This document shows positions 5,276-49,290 of a stretch of DNA of 64,000 nt, piece after piece. How positions within the stretch are numbered: the first letter of the stretch is position 1; each line of letters starts with the position of its first letter. Origin of the DNA: Gammaproteobacteria bacterium (GTDB lineage Bacteria > Pseudomonadota > Gammaproteobacteria > UBA6429 > Thiohalophilaceae). Location: NCBI GenBank assembly GCA_029881995.1, contig JAOULO010000004.1, positions 1 through 64,000 of the forward strand. The letters run 5' to 3'. The notes below the pieces were generated by a model, which was not told the origin of the DNA, searched no databases, and was given only the letters and a program-made list of their open reading frames with translations. Position numbers and translations under genes: made by a program.

Positions 5276-6682
5276 ATGTCCGATAAAGTTTTAAAAATGA
5301 TGAAAGATGAGAACGTGAAGTTCGTCGACTTCCGTTTCACCGATACCCACGGTAAGGAGCAACACGTCTCTGTGCCTGCCCACACCATTGACTCTGACCT
5401 GTTTACCGAAGGTAAGATGTTCGACGGTTCTTCTATCGGCGGTTGGAAGGGCATTAATGAATCCGACATGATCCTGATGCCAGATGCTGATACCGCCATC
5501 ATGGACCCCTTCACTGATGAACCGACTATGATCCTGAGCTGTGACATCCTTGAGCCTGCCACAGGCCAGGGTTATGAGCGTGACCCTCGCTCCATTGCCA
5601 AGCGCGCCGAAGCCTACCTGGCCAGTACCGGTGTGGGTGATACCGCCTTCTTTGGTCCTGAACCTGAATTCTTCATCCTCGACGATGTGCGTTGGGGTTC
5701 TGACATGAGCGGCTCTTTCTACAAGATCGACTCTGAAGAGTCCGAGTGGAACTCCGAGCGTGTTTATACCGACGGCAACATGGGTCACCGCCCTGGTGTG
5801 AAAGGTGGTTATTTCCCTGTACCTCCGGTTGATTCCCTGCATGACCTGCGTGCCGCCATGTGTCTGGCCCTGGAAGAGATGGGTGTGCCTGTTGAAGTGC
5901 ATCACCACGAAGTTGCAACTGCCGGTCAGTGTGAAATCGGCACCAAGTTCAGCACCCTGGTTGAGCGTGCCGACTGGAACCAGCGTATGAAATACGTGAT
6001 CCATAACGTGGCCCATGCCTATGGCAAGACAGCCACCTTTATGCCCAAGCCTCTGGTAGGTGACAATGGCTCAGGTATGCACGTACATATGTCGATTGCC
6101 AAGGGTGGCGATAACCTGTTCTCTGGCGACCAGTACGGCGGCCTGTCAGAAACGGCCCTCTACTACATCGGTGGTGTCATTAAACATGCCCGCGCCCTGA
6201 ATGCCTTCACCAATGCCTCGACCAACTCTTACAAGCGTCTGGTCCCCGGCTTCGAAGCCCCGGTCATGCTGGCCTACTCTGCCCGTAACCGTTCTGCTTC
6301 GATTCGTATTCCTTATGTTGCGAATCCAAAGGGTCGTCGTATCGAAGTTCGCTTCCCGGATCCCACCGCCAACCCATACCTGGCCTTCTCTGCCCTGCTG
6401 ATGGCTGGCCTGGACGGTATCCAGAACAAGATCCACCCAGGTGAAGCGGCTGACAAGGATCTGTACGACCTGCCAGCCGAAGAAGCGGCCAACATCCCAA
6501 CGGTTTGCCACAGCTTCGACCAGGCCCTGGATGCCCTGAACGAAGACCGTGACTTCCTCAAGGCCGGTGGTGTGTTCACTGATGATGTAATCGACGCCTA
6601 TATCAACCTGAAGATGGAAGAAGTGACGCGTATTCGCATGACAACTCATCCTATTGAGTTCGACATGTATTACAGCTGCTAA
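5276..6682 (+). CDS. glnA: Glutamine synthetase type I (GSI-beta)
   Basis: 468 aa, essentially the length of the E. coli enzyme. It makes glutamine from glutamate, ammonia and ATP in the cytoplasm as a dodecamer. The ATG at 5276 follows GAAGGAG at a good distance; an earlier TTG in frame is less likely. Conserved motifs include [10 protein letters not shown], the active-site stretch FGPEPEFF, the ATP-binding [14 protein letters not shown] and NRSASIRIP. The adenylylation site is Tyr397 in DLYDLPAEE, the same number as in E. coli, so control by GlnE is expected. An NtrC site lies upstream and a strong terminator follows, and glnL-glnG lie downstream. Confidence 0.98.
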
Positions 6683-6702
6683 TCAGTACTGTCATGCTCG
6701 AT

Positions 6703-6733
6703 AAAAACGCCTCCTTTTGGAGGCGTTTTTTTT
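6703..6733 (+). terminator. Rho-independent terminator of glnA
   Basis: A 12-bp stem (arms 6703-6714 and 6719-6730, core ACGCCTCC/GGAGGCGT) with a TTTT loop runs into a T tract. It lies about 20 nt after the glnA stop. Confidence 0.92.
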
Positions 6734-6771
6734 GGCTGGCTAAAATGAATTAGCTTGCTTATGCTTAGTAC

Positions 6772-7362
6772 ATGAATCGAGCACAAAAAATTTATTGCCT
6801 GTTCCTCACTATCACTCTGGGTAATTTGCCCGCGTATGCCGCCGAACTGGAAAATCCTCCTGAGGAAGAATCAGGCAAGGTCTATCGTAAATATCACTCA
6901 GATGGCGTTGTAGAGTTTACAGACAAACCCATCCGTGGTGGCCGTGAACTGAAAGTCGAGGAAGTACCCACTTACAAGTTTACCTCTCCCAAAACTGTCG
7001 CCAGCCCTACGCCCAGTAGTGGCCCAGGCACCAAACTAAAGACCAAAAAACTGAGCCCCACTGGTCAGTACTCAAGCCTGACGATCACCAGTCCGACTCG
7101 GGGTCAAACCATCCGAGCCAATGACGGTAATGTGAACGTCAGCTTTAACCTCACTCCAGGCCTGAAACCTGGCCACCAGCTTGTCTACCTGCTGAATGGT
7201 ACTCAGGCTATGCGTTCCAGCCAGGCCCAGCCCCTGATCAATATCTCTCGTGGGACGCATACCCTGGTATTACAGGTGGTGGATGCCAATAATCAGGTCC
7301 TGATCAACTCTGACTCCGTCAGTTTTAACGTGAAGCGCTTCTTTAAATCCGGTAGCCCCTGA
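6772..7362 (+). CDS. DUF4124 domain-containing exported protein
   Basis: 196 aa. A signal peptide (MNRAQKIYCLFLTITLGNLP, cleavage near AYA-AE) is followed by a DUF4124 module: VYRKYHSDGVVEFTDKP is the typical 'xVYRxxDxxGxxxFTDxP' pattern of this family of envelope proteins. After a Ser/Pro/Thr-rich linker, the C-terminal half (SSLTITSPTRGQTIRANDG, LNISRGTHTLVLQVVD) reads like an Ig-like beta-sandwich. The function of DUF4124 proteins is unknown. It sits alone between the glnA terminator and the glnL promoter region, a position in which such genes are often found in related bacteria (recalled from memory). Confidence 0.8.
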   Translation: MNRAQKIYCLFLTITLGNLPAYAAELENPPEEESGKVYRKYHSDGVVEFTDKPIRGGRELKVEEVPTYKFTSPKTVASPTPSSGPGTKLKTKKLSPTGQYSSLTITSPTRGQTIRANDGNVNVSFNLTPGLKPGHQLVYLLNGTQAMRSSQAQPLINISRGTHTLVLQVVDANNQVLINSDSVSFNVKRFFKSGSP

Positions 7363-7389
7363 TTAAACCCACAAAATCTCACTTCCTTA

Positions 7390-7406
7390 TGCACCAATAT
7401 GGTGCA
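7390..7406. promoter_or_regulatory. NtrC-binding site upstream of glnL
   Basis: TGCACCAATATGGTGCA is a perfect match to the NtrC consensus TGCACCANNNTGGTGCA and a perfect palindrome apart from the centre. It lies about 190 bp before glnL, so the NtrBC pair is probably controlled by its own product. Confidence 0.85.
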
Positions 7407-7464
7407 CAAATACTGAACTTGCGCTAATATGTAACAGGTACAACCTCAAAAATTTATTGTTTGA

Positions 7465-7480
7465 GGGGCCGAAATTGGCC
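7465..7480 (+). promoter_or_regulatory. Possible sigma-54 promoter before glnL
   Basis: GGGGCCGAAATTGGCC carries GG and GC dinucleotides with the 10-bp gap required between the -24 and -12 elements, about 60-75 bp downstream of the NtrC site. The flanking bases match the TGGCAC-N5-TTGC consensus poorly, so this is only a candidate. Confidence 0.3.
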
Positions 7481-7594
7481 AGTTCGAAATAACTTTCCTT
7501 TGTTAAACAGTAAGATATATTCTACTTCCAGATATTTTCAAGAAACGCACTATTCCGGACCAAAGCTGGTTTGAATATTGCAAAACTCTGATAT

Positions 7595-8695
7595 ATGAAT
7601 GCCGTGGCCCCATTTACTGACAACATCGATAAATCCATCAAGCAGCGGGTGCTGGACACCCTGCACTCGGTGGTGCTGCTCTTCGACCACGAGCTGCGCC
7701 TGCGCTATATCAATCCCGCTGGTGAAATGCTGTTTGCCGTCAGCGCCCATCGCCTCATTGACCAGCCCCTAACGGAACTACTGCATATAGAAGACTCTAT
7801 GGTGAATGCCCTGCAAGAGGTTATGGCAACTGGCCACCCCATCACCAAGCACGAGCAAAAGCTGATGCTACTGGCGCAGCAGGAAATTACCGTCGATATG
7901 ATAGTCACGGCCCTGCATAACGAACAGTCGGGTAAAGAACTCATGATTGAAATGAACCGGCTGGATCGCCTGTTAAAGATTACTCGCGATGAAAGCCTGA
8001 TTGCCCAACAAAAAGCCACCCGTGAATTATTACGTGGCCTGGCCCATGAAGTGAAAAACCCTCTGGGTGGTTTACGGGGGGCTGCGCAGTTACTGGAGAA
8101 AGAACTCCATGACGAATCCCTGAAAGACTATACCCGGGTCATTATCGAAGAGGCCGACCGCCTGCAGACCCTGGTTAATCGCATCCTTGGCCCGAATAAC
8201 ATGCCAAGTAAAAAGAACGTCAATATTATTGAAGTGCTGGAAAGGGTGCGTGCCCTGATGCTGGCTGAAAAAAGTAGCAAGGTCAGCATAAAACGTGACT
8301 ATGACCCAAGTATCCCGGATGTGACCGCCGATCCTGATCAGCTGATTCAGGCAGTACTGAATATCGTGCGCAACGCCTGTCAGGCCCTGGGTGATAAAGG
8401 TGAGGTACGACTGCGTACCCGCATCCTGCGAAAGTTTACCATCGGTCAGAAGACTCACCGGCTGGCCGCCCTTATCGATGTAATCGATAACGGCCCCGGT
8501 ATTCCCGATGACATAAAGGAACAGATCTTTTTCCCCATGATTACCGGTCGTGCTGAAGGCACCGGACTTGGTCTGTCGATTGCCCAATCCTTGATCCACC
8601 AACACGGTGGCTTGATAGAGTGTGATAGCAAACCGGGGGAAACCGTCTTTTCCATTATTTTACCTGTAGCTGCTGGAGATAAAGATCATGGGTAA
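7595..8695 (+). CDS. glnL: Nitrogen regulation sensor kinase NtrB (GlnL)
   Basis: 366 aa, slightly longer than E. coli NtrB. It is a cytosolic histidine kinase/phosphatase that sets the phosphorylation of NtrC according to the PII protein. An N-terminal PAS domain (residues about 20-130, VVLLFDHELRLRYINPAGE) is followed by the phosphoacceptor region RGLAHEVKNPLGGLRGAAQL with His151, then the ATPase domain with N-box (LNIVRNACQAL), DNGPGIP and GTGLGLSIAQ. The last eight bases overlap the start of glnG. A perfect NtrC site lies upstream. Confidence 0.97.
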   Translation: MNAVAPFTDNIDKSIKQRVLDTLHSVVLLFDHELRLRYINPAGEMLFAVSAHRLIDQPLTELLHIEDSMVNALQEVMATGHPITKHEQKLMLLAQQEITVDMIVTALHNEQSGKELMIEMNRLDRLLKITRDESLIAQQKATRELLRGLAHEVKNPLGGLRGAAQLLEKELHDESLKDYTRVIIEEADRLQTLVNRILGPNNMPSKKNVNIIEVLERVRALMLAEKSSKVSIKRDYDPSIPDVTADPDQLIQAVLNIVRNACQALGDKGEVRLRTRILRKFTIGQKTHRLAALIDVIDNGPGIPDDIKEQIFFPMITGRAEGTGLGLSIAQSLIHQHGGLIECDSKPGETVFSIILPVAAGDKDHG

Positions 8696-30628: not shown

Positions 30629-32719
30629 TCACTTAATAGGTGCGGGATAACCAATATGGTAACCCTGCACCATGTCCACCCCAATATCACCCAGGAAATT
30701 GAGAATCTCCTCATTCTCCACAAACTCGGCAATGGTCTTTTTGTCCAGGGAATGGGCGATGTGATTAATCGAACGTACCATGGCTTGATCCACTGGATCA
30801 TTCATCATATCCCGGACAAAGGTCCCGTCGATCTTGATCACTTCAACTGGCAGGTGTTTTAGATAGGCGAAGGAGCTGAAGCCGGTACCAAAATCATCCA
30901 GTGCAAAACAGATCCCAAGCCCACAAAGCTCATGCATAAAGTCGATGGCCTTTTCTATATGCCGCACAGCAGCCGTCTCGGTCACCTCGAGCATTATGTA
31001 TTTGGCTATCTCAGGCCGTTCACCGATACGGGTTTTAAAAATATCCAGTAACTCACTGTCACCAAACGAGGCACCGGACAGATTGATAGACATTATGGTT
31101 TGATCACCCTCGGCCAGTTGTTCTTTCAAGCTGGTCAGGGCATGGCTTACCACCCACTGATCGACCATGGGCATGATGCCATAACGCTCCGCAACTGGAA
31201 TAAAGCTGGCCGGTGAGATGACGTCCTGTTCGTGTGAATATAGGCGTAGGAGAATTTCATTAATTACAACCTTACCCGAACCAGTTTCCACAATGGGTTG
31301 CTGGTACAGCTCAAAATTATTACTGACCAGTGCATTTCGTATATCGTTGACCAGACCCATTTCACCCAGGGTATCGAGACCGGCTTCATCATTTGACTCA
31401 TAAAGGTGATAACGATTGCGGCCATCCCGCTTTGCAATATAACAGGCGATATCAGCTTCACGCAGGGCCTCAGCGGCCGACTTTGTATGTTGATCAATAA
31501 TCGAAATGCCAAGACTGGGGGTGATATCGTACTGCTTTCCGTCCCAGTTAAAATGCAGGCCCTCCAATGCACTGATATAGGAGCGCGCCACATTGTCCAC
31601 CATATCCAGTGGCACGTGTTCCAGTAACACTCCAAACTCATCACCGCCAAGACGCGCCAGGATATCTCCCTTACGCAGGCGACCGGCAAACAAGTGAGCA
31701 ACCTCGGTTAACAGACTATCCCCAGCGGCATGGCCGGCGGTATCATTGATGATCTTGAACTGATCCAGATCGATATAAAACAGGGCACAAGTGGACTTAT
31801 CACGGGTCACCAGTTGCACCACATGTTCCAGCTGGTGTTCAAAATAGTGTCGATTGTTCAAACCCGTCAAGGTGTCATGCTGGGCAAGGTATTCCAGTTG
31901 TCGACGCGCCATCCGGTCATTGGTTACATCCCGAAACACCAGCACTACACCATGCACCACACCTTTTCTGTCACGAATGGGTGCGGCGGAATCCTCAATC
32001 ACATATTCCTTACCAAACTTTGAAATTAATACCGTATGATTAGCAAGACCAACAATCTTTCCTTCGGCCAGACACCGTGACACAGGTTCCACGGCCAATT
32101 CACGGGTAAGTTCATTGATGATCTTGAAGACTTCGGTTATGGGTTTGTTACAGGCTTCTTCTGATTTCCAGCCGGTCAGTGACTCAGCAATAGGGTTAAG
32201 GTATTTCACCCTGGCCTGGCTGTCTGTGGTGATCACCGCATCACCGATACTTTCCAGTGTAACCAGGGCAAGCTCATGCTCCTTTTCCCATTGTTCACGA
32301 CTCTCCAGTAACTTGCGCAGGGTTTTTTTCTGCCGTTCCAGCTCGTGGTTAAGCGCAATGAATTCGCTGGCAGTCTGTTTACCGGGAATACAGCGTAATA
32401 CCAGTTGTGCCCGGGAAGTTTTTGTTTTGGGTGTTAGTAAAAAACCCTGACAGCGCCAACCCTGTTTATCATCGGTCTTCCAATTAAGGGCAGCCGGTAT
32501 AGCGCTTCGGCTGCGACTCCATGCGCGTAAGGCGGCATTGAGTTTTTCAGGGGGTGAGTTGGAAAAGGTCTGCAGGTTTTGTCCAATGACATCATTACGA
32601 TCACTTTGTAAAAACTGTGAAGCCTTTTTATTGGCCGCCAGGATCTCACCATCAGTACTTAACAGGATCAGCGCTTCTGGCAGTGCATCGGCAAGTTGCA
32701 GAAATTCATCGGCATGCAT
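30629..32719 (-). CDS. PAS-PAS-GGDEF-EAL cyclic di-GMP signalling protein
   Basis: 696 aa. An N-terminal PAS-like domain (1-115, LILLSTDGEILAANKKASQF), a coiled coil (120-150), a second PAS domain (150-270, AVITTDSQARVKYLNPIAE), a GGDEF domain with intact motif LGGDEF (358-362) and inhibitory site RKGD (349-352), and an EAL domain with EILLRL in place of EALLRW but with SINLSG, LEVTETA and LDDFGTGFSS kept. Both cyclase and phosphodiesterase may be active. No membrane segment. It begins seven nt after the MetOD1-like gene and shares the N-terminal PAS type with the kinase at 43515-45983. Confidence 0.93.
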   Translation of the reverse strand: MHADEFLQLADALPEALILLSTDGEILAANKKASQFLQSDRNDVIGQNLQTFSNSPPEKLNAALRAWSRSRSAIPAALNWKTDDKQGWRCQGFLLTPKTKTSRAQLVLRCIPGKQTASEFIALNHELERQKKTLRKLLESREQWEKEHELALVTLESIGDAVITTDSQARVKYLNPIAESLTGWKSEEACNKPITEVFKIINELTRELAVEPVSRCLAEGKIVGLANHTVLISKFGKEYVIEDSAAPIRDRKGVVHGVVLVFRDVTNDRMARRQLEYLAQHDTLTGLNNRHYFEHQLEHVVQLVTRDKSTCALFYIDLDQFKIINDTAGHAAGDSLLTEVAHLFAGRLRKGDILARLGGDEFGVLLEHVPLDMVDNVARSYISALEGLHFNWDGKQYDITPSLGISIIDQHTKSAAEALREADIACYIAKRDGRNRYHLYESNDEAGLDTLGEMGLVNDIRNALVSNNFELYQQPIVETGSGKVVINEILLRLYSHEQDVISPASFIPVAERYGIMPMVDQWVVSHALTSLKEQLAEGDQTIMSINLSGASFGDSELLDIFKTRIGERPEIAKYIMLEVTETAAVRHIEKAIDFMHELCGLGICFALDDFGTGFSSFAYLKHLPVEVIKIDGTFVRDMMNDPVDQAMVRSINHIAHSLDKKTIAEFVENEEILNFLGDIGVDMVQGYHIGYPAPIK

Positions 32720-32725
32720 GTGACA

Positions 32726-33253
32726 TCACGATTTAAAATACTCTCGACCTGAGTCAGGATCTTCCAAGTTATCCTGATTAAGATAGATGGTGACCATACA
32801 AGCTCCGTCACCATTGGCAATGGTTTTATTTAAACACACCCTTGCATAACCCATGTTTTCTGCCGTCACTGTACCAAAGACATTGGAAGTCATCATACAA
32901 AGGGATGGCCGACCCTGCACTGCGTCACCAAAGGGACAGGCCGTATTGGCAAGAACAATCTTTTCCTGATCCATCGACTCAATACCAAAGCCACCCTGAA
33001 TACGTTTTTTGAGGTCAACCAGTACATCAGAGACCTGTTGCAAATTCAGCTGTGGTGTACCGATGGCAGCGCGATATTCACGATCCATCCATTCGCCAAT
33101 GTGCTGACCCACAATACTGACGAAACCCGCGGCCTCATCCAGCCCTACGACATCTTCAAGGGTGCCGGATAGTTCACGCAACAGATTACGAAGAAATACA
33201 TCCCGATCAATGGAAAGTGACAGATCAGCGATGGTCTTATTTCCCTCAGCCAT
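32726..33253 (-). CDS. Probable MetOD1-family three-cysteine sensor protein (copy 1)
   Basis: 175 aa; ATG preceded by GGAG. A helical N-terminal half (FLRNLLRELSGTLEDVVGLD, AAGFVSIVGQHIGEWM) is followed by a conserved core [24 protein letters not shown] and GDGACMVTIYL. Cysteines 106, 119 and 152 are kept at identical spacing (13 and 33) in the paralogue at 45984-46532, which suggests a metal, cofactor or redox site (inference). I take it for a 'methanogen output domain 1' protein from memory of similar sequences. The next gene, seven nt on, is the PAS-GGDEF-EAL protein, its likely partner. Confidence 0.7.
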   Translation of the reverse strand: MAEGNKTIADLSLSIDRDVFLRNLLRELSGTLEDVVGLDEAAGFVSIVGQHIGEWMDREYRAAIGTPQLNLQQVSDVLVDLKKRIQGGFGIESMDQEKIVLANTACPFGDAVQGRPSLCMMTSNVFGTVTAENMGYARVCLNKTIANGDGACMVTIYLNQDNLEDPDSGREYFKS

Positions 33254-42941: not shown

Positions 42942-43469
42942 TTATAGATTGTTGATCTCTTTGTATGCCTGCAATGAGCTGTCCAGGTTGTCATATAGTT
43001 TCGCCGCTGTTAAATCAGCCTTCTCCAGGTAACCGTTAATATCATATTCAGCCACAATAATTTTTTCAGGCAACTGGCCCGGCTGGCCGGTACGGACAAT
43101 AATCCTTACGCTGTGGTTGCCCAGCTCTTCGCGAATATACTTTATTGCGTCCAGTCCGGCAGTATCGGTTTCCATCACCACATCCATAATCACAACGGCA
43201 ATGTCCGGACTGTTTTGCATTATCCTGCGACATTCAAAGCCAGAATATGACTTTAGAATCTGTACTGGTTCCCCTTCGAAGCTATAATCACTCAATACCA
43301 TGGACGTAACCTGATGCACCACATCATCGTCATCAACAATCAGAACCTTCCATGTTCGCTTTACCGACTTGACATCATCATTTTCTGTCTTTCCTACCAC
43401 CGACAAGTTTGGTCCATTAAATAATAGATTACTTTCTCCACTTGCCCTTCTGCGCTGCGCCATCGCCAT
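42942..43469 (-). CDS. Stand-alone response regulator (receiver only)
   Basis: 175 aa; ATG follows AAAGGAC. A 40-residue N-terminal extension precedes one receiver domain: VLIVDDDDVVHQV acidic pocket, phosphoacceptor Asp96 in IMDVVMETDTAG, IIVRTGQPGQ around the Thr switch. The segment RTGQPGQLPEKIIVAEYDIN and the LTAAKLYD that follow match the receiver of the GGDEF-EAL protein at 46567-49290, position by position, with the same residue number for the Asp. No output domain. It is the last gene of the four-gene operon and is presumably served by the kinase just upstream. Confidence 0.92.
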   Translation of the reverse strand: MAMAQRRRASGESNLLFNGPNLSVVGKTENDDVKSVKRTWKVLIVDDDDVVHQVTSMVLSDYSFEGEPVQILKSYSGFECRRIMQNSPDIAVVIMDVVMETDTAGLDAIKYIREELGNHSVRIIVRTGQPGQLPEKIIVAEYDINGYLEKADLTAAKLYDNLDSSLQAYKEINNL

Positions 43470-43514
43470 AATTGATGTCCTTTTTTCTGTGTATTTAAAC
43501 GTTCGACACGTTAA

Positions 43515-45983
43515 CTATGCCAGTCCTCCAGCAGTACTGGCCTGTTGAAATTCCTGACCCGGTAATTTAATGCTGAAATGAATCCCTTCTCCCTCTTTAC
43601 TATCACATTCAATACTGCCACCAAGGGTCTGGGTCACCAGATTAAATACAATATGCATACCCAGTCCACTGCCGCCTTTATTGCGTGCAGTGGTAAAAAA
43701 GGGGTCAAATATTTTCGCTACGTTTGCCTTTGCCAGGCCCTTACCATCATCACGATACTCCAGGTTAATACCCCTGCTCTTATGCGTACTGACCTTAATA
43801 TTGATCTTGCCATTATCACGTTCACTAAAACCGTGAATCAGTGAATTCATAATGAGATTGGTCATCACCTGTGACAGGGCTCCGGGATGATTAAAGATTA
43901 CGATATCCTCTGGACAATCAATGCTGACCTGGTGACCACCTTTTTTAAGTTTCGGTGTAAGACTTTGCAGAATTTCATCCAGGTATTCCGACAGATTAAA
44001 TTCACGCAATTCATTACTGGTCTGATCCACAGCCACCTGTTTGAAACTTCGAATCAGGTTGGCCGCTCGATTAAGGTTTTGATGGACAATACGGCTGGTC
44101 TCTGTTGCTGACTTTAACAGGGACTCAAAATCACTCCGGGTCAGCTGACCCGTTTCATAACGAGTGGCATAGTTATCCAGTTTCATCTCAAGATGAGATA
44201 TCGCCGTCACACCCATACCAACCGGCGTATTTATCTCATGAGCCACCCCTGCCACCAGGCCACCCAGGGATGCCATTTTTTCTGACTGCACCAGTTGATC
44301 CTGAGTCTGCTTCAACTGTTCCAGAGAAATCTGTAGGCTGGTGTTTGCTGATTGTAATTCGGCTGTGCGCAGCTCAACCCGATCTTCCAGTTCCACATTC
44401 AACTTCTGCAATGCATCCTGTGCCTGTTTGGTTTCCGTGATATCTTCCACACTGGACCAGATATAGCGCTCACCTTTAAACTCAACAATCTGGCCTGAGA
44501 GTCGAACCGGCACCCGGTGCCCATCCTTGTGAAGATATTCTTTTTCATAAGGGCCATACTGTCCGCTACTATTCAGGCTATCCAGTTGCTGCTGTTCTTC
44601 TTCGGCGTAATCTTCCGGTGTAATTTCCCAATATGTCAGTTTTTTCGTTTCATCGATATCACGGCCAATGATATTGGCATAGGCTGGATTGATATCAATT
44701 AAATTGCCCTGCATATCACATAAGGCAAGACCAATTGGTGATGTATCAAACAACATACTCTTATAGGCTTCGGCCTCTTTCTTTTCGGTAATGTCCTGTA
44801 CCGTACCGATCATTCGAACCGCCGCACCCTTTGGGCTGCGATAGACCTTGCCACGCTCATTCACTATGCGTTCAGAACCATCCGGCCTGACTACACGATG
44901 GACAATATCATAGGGAATGTTTTCATCAGCAACTGACTGACTGACCGCTTCGGTTACTGCATCTCGATCATCCGGGTGAATAGACTCCAGAAACGCCTCA
45001 TAGGTTGCACCAAATTGCTGGGGTTCCAAACCGAAAATGCGATAAATCTCATCGGTCCAATACAGGCCACCTCCGACAATATCCCAGTCCCAGCTACCTA
45101 CATGTGCAATGGCCTGGGCCCGTTCCAGGGTCTCCTGGCTACGTTCCAGCTCAGCCTCAATGGCCTTGCGGTCACTGATATCCTGAAAGGTAATAACTGA
45201 ACCGATAATCTGTTTATCCTTTTTTACTGGGTGAGAGAAATAATCAACAGGAAATGCAGTACCGTCCTTACGATAAAAGACTTCGTTATCCTGACGGGTA
45301 TGTTGACCAGCTATATGTGCCTGATAGATCGGACAATCATCAATTGGATAAGGACGGCCATCAGCATAACTATGATGAATTATGCTGTGCATGTTCTTTC
45401 CCAGCAATTCTTCGTTCTCTTCATAGCCCAGGAGGTGCAAACAGGCTGCATTGACAAAAGTACACTTTCCTTCCATATCAATGCCATAGATGGCCTCACC
45501 TGCTGAGTCCAACAATAACCTCACCTGCTCGTTACTTTCAGCAAAGGCTTTTTCATATCGCTTGCGTTTTGCAGCCTCTTTTTCAAGTAAAGCAATCTTT
45601 TCGCTCAAGGTGATAAACTGATTGGTCATCTCTGCCTTCTGTGTACTGCGTAACATGATCAGGGCAGGACTATCCGCTGTGCGTGGTTGCAGCAGACTAC
45701 CATGACAATGACATTCAACACACTCTCCAGCCTCTCCGCGCAACTTGAATGAAGCCGGTACTGGTTGCCGACTAGCGGACCAGTTGCGCAGATCCTTTGT
45801 GAATTTTTCTTGGTCTTCCGCCTGCAACAGGTCGCGAAGATTTCTACCCTGTATTTCCTCGGCGGATAAACCTATCAATTTACAGGCTGCTTTGTTTGCT
45901 GCCAGCATTTCACCCTGTGCCGTTAATAGGCATAGCGGCTCAAGTATACTCTCGGCAAATTGCAGAAAATTCTCTGGTTTCAT
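43515..45983 (-). CDS. Multi-PAS sensor histidine kinase, soluble
   Basis: 822 aa, no membrane segment. The N-terminal PAS-like domain (1-110, LCLLTAQGEMLAANKAACKL) is homologous to that of the GGDEF-EAL protein at 30629. Three more PAS domains follow (about 145-270, 285-395, 400-520), then a coiled coil, the phosphoacceptor segment LVAGVAHEINTPVGMGVTAI with His582 and an ATPase domain with NLIMNSLIHGF and GSGLGMHIVF. A Cys/His cluster CVECHCHG lies in the first domain. Its ATG directly follows the MetOD1-like stop (TAAATG), so the two are co-translated. Likely partner: the response regulator 45 nt downstream. Confidence 0.93.
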   Translation of the reverse strand: MKPENFLQFAESILEPLCLLTAQGEMLAANKAACKLIGLSAEEIQGRNLRDLLQAEDQEKFTKDLRNWSASRQPVPASFKLRGEAGECVECHCHGSLLQPRTADSPALIMLRSTQKAEMTNQFITLSEKIALLEKEAAKRKRYEKAFAESNEQVRLLLDSAGEAIYGIDMEGKCTFVNAACLHLLGYEENEELLGKNMHSIIHHSYADGRPYPIDDCPIYQAHIAGQHTRQDNEVFYRKDGTAFPVDYFSHPVKKDKQIIGSVITFQDISDRKAIEAELERSQETLERAQAIAHVGSWDWDIVGGGLYWTDEIYRIFGLEPQQFGATYEAFLESIHPDDRDAVTEAVSQSVADENIPYDIVHRVVRPDGSERIVNERGKVYRSPKGAAVRMIGTVQDITEKKEAEAYKSMLFDTSPIGLALCDMQGNLIDINPAYANIIGRDIDETKKLTYWEITPEDYAEEEQQQLDSLNSSGQYGPYEKEYLHKDGHRVPVRLSGQIVEFKGERYIWSSVEDITETKQAQDALQKLNVELEDRVELRTAELQSANTSLQISLEQLKQTQDQLVQSEKMASLGGLVAGVAHEINTPVGMGVTAISHLEMKLDNYATRYETGQLTRSDFESLLKSATETSRIVHQNLNRAANLIRSFKQVAVDQTSNELREFNLSEYLDEILQSLTPKLKKGGHQVSIDCPEDIVIFNHPGALSQVMTNLIMNSLIHGFSERDNGKINIKVSTHKSRGINLEYRDDGKGLAKANVAKIFDPFFTTARNKGGSGLGMHIVFNLVTQTLGGSIECDSKEGEGIHFSIKLPGQEFQQASTAGGLA

Positions 45984-46532
45984 TTAATCACCCGTTTGAA
46001 AGTATTCGCGGCCCTCTGCGGCCTGAGCCTCTGCCGTATCCTGCAGATAGACAACAACCTGACAACCGCTATCACCCTGAGCAATGGTCTTTTGCAACTC
46101 CACCTTGGCATAGCCTGCATTCTCTGCTGCAATCGTCCCAAACACATTGGAGGTCATCATGCACAGGGAGGGTCGATCGACAACTTTTTCTGCGAAAGGA
46201 CATAGCCGATTACCGAAGACAATTCGGTTTTCATCTGCCTCAACAACATAGAACTCACCTTGAATACGTGCCTTGAGATCTTCCAGCACCTGGCAGATTT
46301 GTTCATGGTTCAGTTTGTCGACTTTCAGAACTTTTTTGTAACTGTCGTTAATTTCATGACCAATATTCTGACCCACAACACTAATAAAGCCTTCGGCCTC
46401 TTCCAGTCCTACCACATCCTGTAGCAGGCCTGACAACTCTCGGATCACACTGCGACAGAATCCATCTCGCTCAAGAGGCATATCAAGTTCTGATAGTGAA
46501 GTGGTTGTGGGTTTGATTTTTACTTGCGCCAT
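45984..46532 (-). CDS. Probable MetOD1-family three-cysteine sensor protein (copy 2)
   Basis: 182 aa from the ATG at 46532, nine bases after GGAG; a TTG 21 nt upstream is less likely. It matches copy 1 (32726-33253) over the whole length: [55 protein letters not shown] and GREYF. Cysteines 111, 124 and 157 are the ones shared with copy 1; Cys26 and Cys80 are not. The stop touches the start of the histidine kinase gene. The protein is soluble; a cofactor- or redox-sensing function is inference. Confidence 0.72.
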
Positions 46533-46566
46533 TGTCGTCTTCTCCTGTTTCAATTTTCAGGCTTAT

Positions 46567-49290
46567 CTAATCACGGTCAACCTGAATAAGGTTTGGCCCA
46601 CCACCTTCATTAATTAGTGCCATAATGGCTTCCGCTGCCAGGGGTGGGCTATACAGATAGCCCTGTATGGCATCACAGCCCTGTTCGCGTAAATATTCTA
46701 ACTGCTCATTAGTCTCAACACCTTCTGCTACCACCTCCATACCCATAGTATGTCCCAGAGAGATAATCGCTGAGGCGATGGCCGCATCATCAGGGTTAAA
46801 GGTGACATCACGCACAAACATACGATCAATTTTTAAAATATCGAATGGCAGGCGTTTGAGATAATTCATAGACGAATAACCGGTACCAAAATCATCTATT
46901 GACAGCTTGACACCCATCTCATGTAATTCATTCAACACATTTGAAGTCTCTTTGATTTGATCGACCAGTAGACCTTCGGTCAATTCCAGTTCCAGGTATT
47001 GGGGCGCTAGGCCCGACCTACTCAGTATCTGTTCAATTCGTTTAACCAGGCCCTGTGACTTGAATTGGCGAATGGAAAGATTGACGGCAATACGCTTTGC
47101 TGGAAGACCTGCTAGCTGCCAGGCTTTTTCCTGTATACAGGCCGTCTTCAACACCCAGTCACCAACTTCGTTTATCATGCCGGTCTCTTCAAGGATGGGT
47201 ATAAACTGAAAGGGAGAAACATTTGGTAGATCATCGTTGAACCAGCGTAATAAGGCTTCAAAGCCAATAATATTATTGTCCTGAATGCGGACTTGTGGCT
47301 GGAAATATAGCTGAAACTCATCTCTATCTAATGCACGACGAAGTTGTGTTTCCATCGAAAGACGCGATATGCCAAGTGACTCATCATCTCCTGTATAGAG
47401 CTGATAATTATCTTTGCCATTGGCCTTGGCCCGATACATTGCCACGTCGGCCTTTTTTAGTAGCTCCTGACATTCCTTTCCATCCCTGGGAAAAAGGCTA
47501 ATACCGATACTTGACGTCACAAACAGCTCATGTTGCTTGATGACGACGGGTTTTCTTAGTTCATCTAGAATTTTTTCAGCGATTGGTATTACATCATTCG
47601 ACGAAGCAATATCATTCAGGACAATGGCAAACTCATCACCACCCAGTCTGGCTACGGTATCACCTTCCCTTACACAGGCGAGAAGCCTTTGCGATACCTC
47701 TTTTAGCAGATCATCACCTGCATCATGACCAAGGCTATCGTTGATCACCTTAAAACGATCGATATCCATGAACATAACTGCAATATTTCGACCATTCCAT
47801 GGACCGCGTGCAAGTACCTGTGAGAGCCTATCTTGCAACAAAACTCGGTTCGGCAACCCGGTAAGCGAATCATGGTGTGCCATGAAATGTAAACGCTCCT
47901 GCGCCTCTATACGTTCAGTAACGTCCTTCCCTGTGGATATAAAATGGACAATATTGCCGTGCCGATCTTTTTGTGGTGTGATGGTTTTTTCTTCATAAAA
48001 ATATTCGCCATTTTTCTTTTTGTTTATCACCACATCGCTGAATATTTCGCCGGAAAGAATTGTTTTCCATAACCTCTCGTAATACGAGGCTGGTTGTTTA
48101 TCTGACTTGAGAATAGCGGGTGTATTTCCAATAATTTCTTCTTTACTGTAGCCCGTCATCAACTCATATGCCGGATTAATATATTCGATGGTGCCATCAT
48201 AGTCTGTAATCATAACTGCATCTGCAATCTGCTCGACAGCACCGGAGAGTTTGCGCATTTGCTCTTCAGTTTGATAGCGAAGGGTAATGTCCTGCAGGGT
48301 ACCCGCCATCCGAACCGCTTCACCTTTTTCATTTCGATCAACCTGCCCTTGCTGATGCACAAATCGTAACTGACCATCATCACGAATGATCCTGTGCTCA
48401 ATATCATAGGGGAGGCCTGTTTCAAGAGAGTTTCTAAATGCCTCTTCAACCAGGTTACGGTCGTCATCGATAACCACATCGAGCATATCTTTAAATGTCT
48501 CACCAGGCGTACTTGGCTGAATTCTGATTATTTTGAAAATCTGATCAGACCATATAATTTCATCAGTACCGATATCCCATTCCCAACTACCTATCCTTGC
48601 AATTCGTTGCGCCTCATTAAGTCTTGCTTCACTTTCCTGTAATTTTTTATAGGCCTTATTGCGCTCAACTACCTCGCCTTTCAATTCCTCATTGACCTTC
48701 ATCATTTCCAGAGTACGTTCACGTACCCGTTGCTCAAGGTTGATATTATTAACTGCAAGATCCTGAATTTTTTTTAAGTCGGAAAAGGCGCGTAATGCCG
48801 TGATAATGCTGGTATAAAGCTTTTGCGCTGTCAGTTCTGTTTTTTCTTTATAATCATTGATATCAAATTCTGTAATCACTTCTTTTTCCGGCGCCTGACC
48901 TGGCTGACCGGTGCGAAGGATAATGCGTACAAAGTGGTTATTTAATTCATCTCGTATATACTTGACTGTATCAAGGCCTGCAGTATCCGTTTCCATCACC
49001 ACATCTAGCAACATCACTGCCGTATCGGGATTTTCCTTAATCAACTTACGAGCTTCTTCGCCAGAGTAGCCCTGTATCATTTGCAATGGGCGTCCCTGAT
49101 AATAAAAATCCTCAAGCACTATAGCCGTTACCTGATGAACAACTTCATCATCATCTATTACCATGATTTTCCATGGTTGCTGAATTGATTTATCAGTGGT
49201 GTTTGAATTTGCCCCTTCTTTTTGACCGGCGTCATCTGCAAAGAGGAGAAAATCACCCTGTAAATCAGCTTTTAGCTCTGAACCTTTCAT
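46567..49290 (-). CDS. Receiver-PAS-PAS-GGDEF-EAL cyclic di-GMP protein
   Basis: 907 aa. Receiver (residues 40-165) with IDDDEVVHQV and Asp96, then a helical linker, two PAS/PAC domains (about 230-345 and 350-470), GGDEF domain with intact LGGDEF and inhibitory site REGD five residues before it, and EAL domain with canonical FEALLRW, SVNLSIRQF, LELTEGLL and IDDFGTGYSS. Both activities may exist and are probably set by phosphorylation. It is the first gene of the operon; the MetOD1-like gene starts 34 nt after its stop, then kinase and second response regulator. The ATG has a weak ribosome site. Confidence 0.93.
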   Translation of the reverse strand: MKGSELKADLQGDFLLFADDAGQKEGANSNTTDKSIQQPWKIMVIDDDEVVHQVTAIVLEDFYYQGRPLQMIQGYSGEEARKLIKENPDTAVMLLDVVMETDTAGLDTVKYIRDELNNHFVRIILRTGQPGQAPEKEVITEFDINDYKEKTELTAQKLYTSIITALRAFSDLKKIQDLAVNNINLEQRVRERTLEMMKVNEELKGEVVERNKAYKKLQESEARLNEAQRIARIGSWEWDIGTDEIIWSDQIFKIIRIQPSTPGETFKDMLDVVIDDDRNLVEEAFRNSLETGLPYDIEHRIIRDDGQLRFVHQQGQVDRNEKGEAVRMAGTLQDITLRYQTEEQMRKLSGAVEQIADAVMITDYDGTIEYINPAYELMTGYSKEEIIGNTPAILKSDKQPASYYERLWKTILSGEIFSDVVINKKKNGEYFYEEKTITPQKDRHGNIVHFISTGKDVTERIEAQERLHFMAHHDSLTGLPNRVLLQDRLSQVLARGPWNGRNIAVMFMDIDRFKVINDSLGHDAGDDLLKEVSQRLLACVREGDTVARLGGDEFAIVLNDIASSNDVIPIAEKILDELRKPVVIKQHELFVTSSIGISLFPRDGKECQELLKKADVAMYRAKANGKDNYQLYTGDDESLGISRLSMETQLRRALDRDEFQLYFQPQVRIQDNNIIGFEALLRWFNDDLPNVSPFQFIPILEETGMINEVGDWVLKTACIQEKAWQLAGLPAKRIAVNLSIRQFKSQGLVKRIEQILSRSGLAPQYLELELTEGLLVDQIKETSNVLNELHEMGVKLSIDDFGTGYSSMNYLKRLPFDILKIDRMFVRDVTFNPDDAAIASAIISLGHTMGMEVVAEGVETNEQLEYLREQGCDAIQGYLYSPPLAAEAIMALINEGGGPNLIQVDRD

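Follow-up and report, generated by a model that had tools for sequence, protein, structure and literature searches.

The window, by which we mean the whole 64,000-nucleotide stretch analyzed here, contains two genes for stand-alone proteins of the MetOD1 family, each followed on the minus strand by a gene whose product begins with a particular PAS domain, hereafter N-PAS (Table 1). The first MetOD1 gene is an intact and real open reading frame that runs from 33253 to 32726, with an ATG and a stop codon present, and the ATG of its GGDEF-EAL partner lies at 32719, six bases past that stop codon. The second MetOD1 gene directly abuts the gene for a PAS histidine kinase.

Table 1. Coordinates of the two MetOD1 genes, their partners, and neighboring features in the window
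Feature	Coordinates	Strand	Details
Stand-alone MetOD1 protein, proposed Fe-S sensor subunit	32726..33253	-	175 aa; PF18546 7.2e-24; AlphaFold2 pLDDT 88.7, predicted V4R/Bet3/H-NOX fold
C106 codon (CPF motif)	32936..32938	-	invariant, 76/76
C119 codon (PSLC motif)	32897..32899	-	invariant, 76/76
C152 codon (GDxxC motif)	32798..32800	-	invariant, 76/76
Partner of first MetOD1: N-PAS, linker, PAS, GGDEF, EAL	30629..32719	-	696 aa; Pfam EAL 6.5e-64, GGDEF 7.4e-43, PAS
N-PAS and coiled-coil linker of the GGDEF-EAL partner	32291..32707	-	profile A3, 2.1e-47; predicted PAS fold and long helix, pLDDT 87.5
Second MetOD1 protein	45984..46532	-	51% identical to first; other subfamily of the tree
Kinase partner of second MetOD1: N-PAS, further PAS domains, histidine kinase	43515..45983	-	822 aa; Pfam HATPase_c 3.3e-20, PAS
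N-PAS of the kinase partner	45546..45971	-	profile A3, 9.1e-45
Receiver-PAS-PAS-GGDEF-EAL gene directly upstream of second MetOD1	46567..49290	-	Pfam
Single-domain receiver gene directly downstream of the kinase	42942..43469	-	Pfam Response_reg 1.1e-9

The assignment of the first protein to MetOD1, for which a preliminary description had proposed an HMM search, is secure: the match to PF18546 reached 84.9 bits against a gathering cut-off of 23.8 and aligned positions 2-141 of the 142 in the profile. The core that had been read earlier as running from CPF to GDxxC corresponds to C106, C119, and C152, which follow the spacing C-x12-C-x32-C (+13/+33) and proved to be invariant in a wide alignment of 76 sequences from about 10 phyla. 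All three are also present in the second copy, as the preliminary description had stated for a paralogue. Eight further positions (P107, F108, M121, T122, F126, G127, G135, and A146) are invariant in the same alignment, in which the fourth cysteine of the protein, C140, occurs in only seven sequences and no histidine is conserved. We confirmed 418 relatives in a scan that covered genomes of bacteria and archaea. The best 80 of these, at 53-69% identity, include members from Pseudomonadota, Cyanobacteriota, Myxococcota, Planctomycetota, Gemmatimonadota, Nitrospirota, Thermodesulfobacteriota, Chlorobiota, Verrucomicrobiota, and Acidobacteriota, and identity of this order across such phyla is strong conservation. 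Within the phylum the family is rare, being found in 8 of 249 evenly drawn genomes, and the window's own genome yielded two copies and no third.

The partner of stand-alone MetOD1 follows a strict rule. We built a profile of N-PAS from the first ~140 residues of the downstream proteins and searched all fetched loci with it in six frames; the loci had been picked on MetOD1 alone, and therefore the neighbors were not selected for. N-PAS lies directly downstream and on the same strand in 83 stand-alone MetOD1 loci. Among the rest, four are cut by a contig end and six lacked N-PAS in that search. Four of the six (L091, L092, L094, and L102) are fusions of MetOD1 to sigma-54 activators, a fifth (L090) appears to be a frame-broken protein of the sigma-54 type, and the apparent exception (L096, reread as L103) does have an N-PAS, which is split by a frame break. 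The co-occurrence with a PAS partner that the preliminary description had anticipated is thus seen in the 83 loci and in this split one. In the AlphaFold2 model, N-PAS is predicted to fold as a PAS domain that ends in a long helix, and the top match is a PAS domain of PpsR (Z 13.8). Some partners of the Hydrogenophaga/Comamonadaceae type (L012, L010, L030, L021, and L098) carry a tandem second N-PAS-like domain after the first.

The rule also holds in reverse. N-PAS was found only in genomes with stand-alone MetOD1, that is, in the same 7 of 249 genomes from the phylum and the same 5 of 40 from the order, and at 1e-15 it was absent from the other 242 and 35 genomes, most of which have many PAS candidates; in one part of this search the best 16 PAS candidates per genome were scored. 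Because the MetOD1-bearing genomes of both samples also supplied rows to the profile, the fresh information in this comparison is the absence. N-PAS was likewise absent in sampled genomes where MetOD1 occurs only as a sigma-54 fusion. The window's own genome has two full-length N-PAS domains for its two MetOD1 proteins; its next PAS domain scores 8e-7, roughly 38 orders weaker, over a third of the profile. The partner PAS is one specific family that is linked one-to-one with stand-alone MetOD1. Furthermore, pairwise distances among sensors and among N-PAS domains were correlated (0.57 over 66 pairs, compared to a maximum of 0.24 in 5000 permutations), which shows joint inheritance of the two rather than contact. 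Such co-inheritance would also be expected for two genes of the same pathway whose products never touch, a point that counts against the explanation we prefer below.

What stands behind N-PAS and its coiled coil is variable. Among 66 scanned partners, HATPase_c was found in 56, HisKA in 52, a receiver in 37, and GGDEF with EAL in 8; kinases are the commoner partners of MetOD1. Mapping the GGDEF label on the tree takes five changes by parsimony, only one of which is forced by well-supported branches. The sensor and N-PAS stay constant while the outputs vary, which argues that N-PAS is the receiving domain. This agrees with the earlier suggestion that the small protein could be a sensor whose signal enters the partner at its N-terminal PAS domain, an arrangement that the 83 adjacent loci support and that would probably involve contact.

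A second line of evidence for a sensory role comes from fusions. MetOD1 forms the N terminus of AAA sigma-54 activators with a Fis-type HTH in four genomes (G001, G003, and G028 from the window's family, and G141), a position that in DmpR belongs to the effector-binding V4R domain, and the label "output domain" is for this reason probably wrong. The name goes back to REC-MetOD1 proteins of archaea, and Galperin et al. (PMC5847659) already left room for a sensory role of such domains. A seeming fusion of MetOD1 to a kinase (L029) was rejected, as the long open reading frame is the kinase read upstream in another frame. A beta-carbonic-anhydrase-like gene (PF00484) lies near the sigma-54-fused form in all four loci examined (L142, L143, L144, and L146), and in the first of these DsrE-like and flavoprotein-reductase-like (Pyr_redox_2) genes are also nearby. 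Relatives of this kind can act as carbonyl sulfide hydrolases, and a sulfur compound may therefore be what the fused MetOD1 senses.

The nature of the sensing site can be approached through the predicted structure. When the AlphaFold2 model of MetOD1 was compared with solved folds, the V4R domains of DmpR and MopR and the TRAPP protein Bet3 scored Z 15 and H-NOX scored Z 9; the two V4R domains superposed on the model over 143-149 residues at 2.6-3.0 Å. The predicted fold is thus of the V4R/Bet3/H-NOX kind. A search of PDB sequences with the protein or its profile gave chance matches only, such as ribosomal L12, and no structure of SufR or ArnR came up in the fold search, which has no bearing either way.

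These comparisons raise the possibility that the two proteins form a sensor module in which the three cysteines hold a structural zinc, and a V4R-type pocket senses a small organic or sulfur compound, much as DmpR senses phenol. Among the best-matching solved structures are DmpR, MopR, and PoxR, phenol sensors that bind zinc (Z ~15), the sigma-54-fused MetOD1 sits at the V4R position of DmpR, and the beta-carbonic-anhydrase-like genes beside the fused forms in the four loci could point to a sulfur compound. However, zinc in DmpR is bound by Cys151, Glu172, Cys177, and Cys185 (PMC7264223), and this set is not kept in MetOD1. By spacing only, C119 and C152 correspond to the first and last of the DmpR cysteines (33 versus 34 residues apart), and on the same placement the middle Glu and Cys are missing, with threonine T144 in the equivalent position, eight residues ahead of C152, while C106 is added 13 residues upstream, as in SufR and ArnR. 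No Glu or Cys is conserved between C119 and C152 in the 76 sequences, and the protein at 32726..33253 has no match to PF02830 (V4R). Because the DmpR-type ligand set is not kept, we regard a zinc-based V4R sensor as less likely.

The cysteines resemble more closely those of two iron-sulfur regulators. In SufR of M. tuberculosis, C203, C216, and C244 (+13/+28) are all required (PMC6034842), and in ArnR, which responds to NO and for which a [4Fe-4S] cluster has been shown, the corresponding residues are C179, C193, and C223 (+14/+30); its sensor domain has been likened to TRAPPC3 (PMC12343034), a resemblance shared with the Bet3-like fold predicted for MetOD1. The +13/+33 spacing of MetOD1 is close to this pattern of +13/14 and then ~+28 to +30, with a slightly longer second interval. 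In addition, hhalign placed the three cysteines of MetOD1 and of the SufR sensor regions in register, with a score above all 150 column shuffles. Against SufR alone the alignment had an E value of 0.001 and a probability of 21%, and with SufR-like intermediates added these became 6e-5 or better and 64-75%. The protein at 32726..33253 does not match TIGR02702 (SufR), and SufR sensor regions do not match PF18546 as single sequences, so the link between the two families rests on profiles and intermediates. One such intermediate is the C-terminal domain of a SufR-like protein in locus L111, which matches PF18546 (8e-6) and, on its own, TIGR02702 (4.6e-8). In that locus (L111:4927-5574 and 6149-8221), the HTH regulator with its MetOD1/SufR-type domain, which carries both V4R-like and SufR-like cysteine sets, lies just upstream of an [FeFe] hydrogenase gene and is a candidate evolutionary link. 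Several genomes (L127-L131) encode a SufR paralogue with a CPIC...C...C pattern, which in cyanobacteria stands beside true SufR.

Taken together, the cysteine spacing, the register with the SufR profile, and the L111 intermediate point to a SufR/ArnR-type Fe-S cluster as the likeliest cofactor of MetOD1, ahead of zinc and haem. With neither a conserved fourth cysteine nor a conserved histidine as ligand, a distinct iron site would remain, as has been discussed for ArnR. The preliminary description had suggested a bound cofactor or metal, and the invariant cysteines (76/76) are consistent with such a sensor, although which cofactor it holds is a matter of inference.

Other readings of the cysteines fare less well. 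They might form a thiol-disulfide switch that needs no cofactor and acts on the PAS partner, as has been proposed for the V4R domain of the regulator MsvR, which has three conserved cysteines and whose DNA binding varies with redox state (PMC3729527); the MsvR model also gives a weak match to a MetOD1-like relative. Yet the cysteines are invariant jointly with the CPF and PSLC motifs, an arrangement that resembles a ligand site, and SufR and ArnR bind clusters with nearly the same spacing, which leaves the switch improbable. We give still less credence to an enzyme akin to ATC hydrolase that would make a product for the PAS domain to sense: a related activity was suggested by Galperin et al. 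in 2018 (PMC5847659) and a sigma-54-fused member matches PF14196 weakly (0.025), but the protein at 32726..33253 has no match to PF14196, and direct fusion to the sigma-54 AAA domain together with strict one-to-one pairing favors contact over a diffusible product. Least probable of all is a haem-based NO sensor in the form of a cryptic H-NOX, which we reject because no histidine is conserved in the 76 sequences and because the protein has no Pfam HNOB match, even though its fold is related and its gene is paired in a similar way with those of kinases or GGDEF-EAL proteins.

We therefore lean toward the explanation that MetOD1 is a stand-alone Fe-S sensor subunit that regulates a dedicated N-PAS in trans, in the manner of H-NOX. 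In this reading C106, C119, and C152 would ligate an iron-sulfur cluster, most likely of the [4Fe-4S] type, and a change in the cluster, whether in redox state, by attack of NO or O2, or by loss, would alter the shape of the protein. MetOD1 would bind the N-PAS of its downstream neighbor, with the intact and altered forms binding differently, and the coiled coil after N-PAS could relay the change to the output, setting the activity of the GGDEF-EAL protein in the case of the first copy and of the histidine kinase in the case of the paralogue. Cluster type, signal, physical contact, and direction of effect are the parts of this scheme that we infer.

The second copy adds a different setting. 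Its locus is a four-gene cluster (49290..42942) of a receiver-PAS-PAS-GGDEF-EAL protein, MetOD1, the PAS-kinase, and a receiver, the first three of which are kept in three other loci (L103, L031, and L084), and kinase and c-di-GMP output seem to be joined here in a single pathway. On the tree, the first copy falls inside a gammaproteobacterial clade with GGDEF-EAL partners and the second inside a clade with kinases. A recent duplication as the source of the two copies in the window was rejected because the tree places the copies in different, supported subfamilies, which also have different partner types.

Parts of this picture have precedents. The 2018 description of MetOD1 concerned methanogens, in which the domain, of unknown function, was assigned mostly to the output end of response regulators, and its relation to HNOB, V4R, and ATC hydrolase was noted at that time (PMC5847659); our proteins belong to the same Pfam family (PF18546) and have the same three conserved cysteines. 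They differ in that they come from about 10 bacterial phyla, stand alone, are linked to a PAS domain dedicated to them, and, in their fused forms, appear to serve as the input of sigma-54 activators. The bacterial form was not treated in the literature we searched on MetOD1 and "methanogen output domain," and while the family is known, its role, partner rule, and likely cofactor were not described there. The closest functional parallel is H-NOX, a stand-alone sensor that controls a histidine kinase (HnoK) or a GGDEF-EAL protein in trans, as with SwH-NOX and SwDGC of Shewanella woodyi (PMC8846402), and that shares with MetOD1 a related fold and the pairing of genes. Unlike H-NOX, MetOD1 has three cysteines in place of a haem ligand and a partner that always carries the specific N-PAS; it is not itself an H-NOX, and its placement among H-NOX-like trans-sensors would be by function and not by homology. 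SufR and ArnR, for their part, are HTH repressors that act on DNA, whereas MetOD1 is a subunit of its own that lacks a DNA-binding region.

The bacterial data recast MetOD1, which has been catalogued since 2018 among the output domains of archaea, as a probable sensory subunit with a partner domain of its own. To the broader proposal we give even weight: that this is a widespread bacterial module whose sensor, a stand-alone protein with the V4R/H-NOX fold and a [4Fe-4S] cluster, passes NO, O2, or redox signals in trans to kinases and c-di-GMP enzymes through a single dedicated PAS adaptor, which would make it the Fe-S analogue of H-NOX and NosP. Confirmation of the cluster would add an Fe-S branch to the few stand-alone gas and redox sensors, such as H-NOX and NosP, that steer these enzymes, and would link SufR, ArnR, MsvR, V4R, and MetOD1 as relatives that sense through cysteine sites. 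It would also provide a testable input signal for the many N-PAS kinases and GGDEF-EAL proteins of cyanobacteria, proteobacteria, planctomycetes, and myxobacteria.
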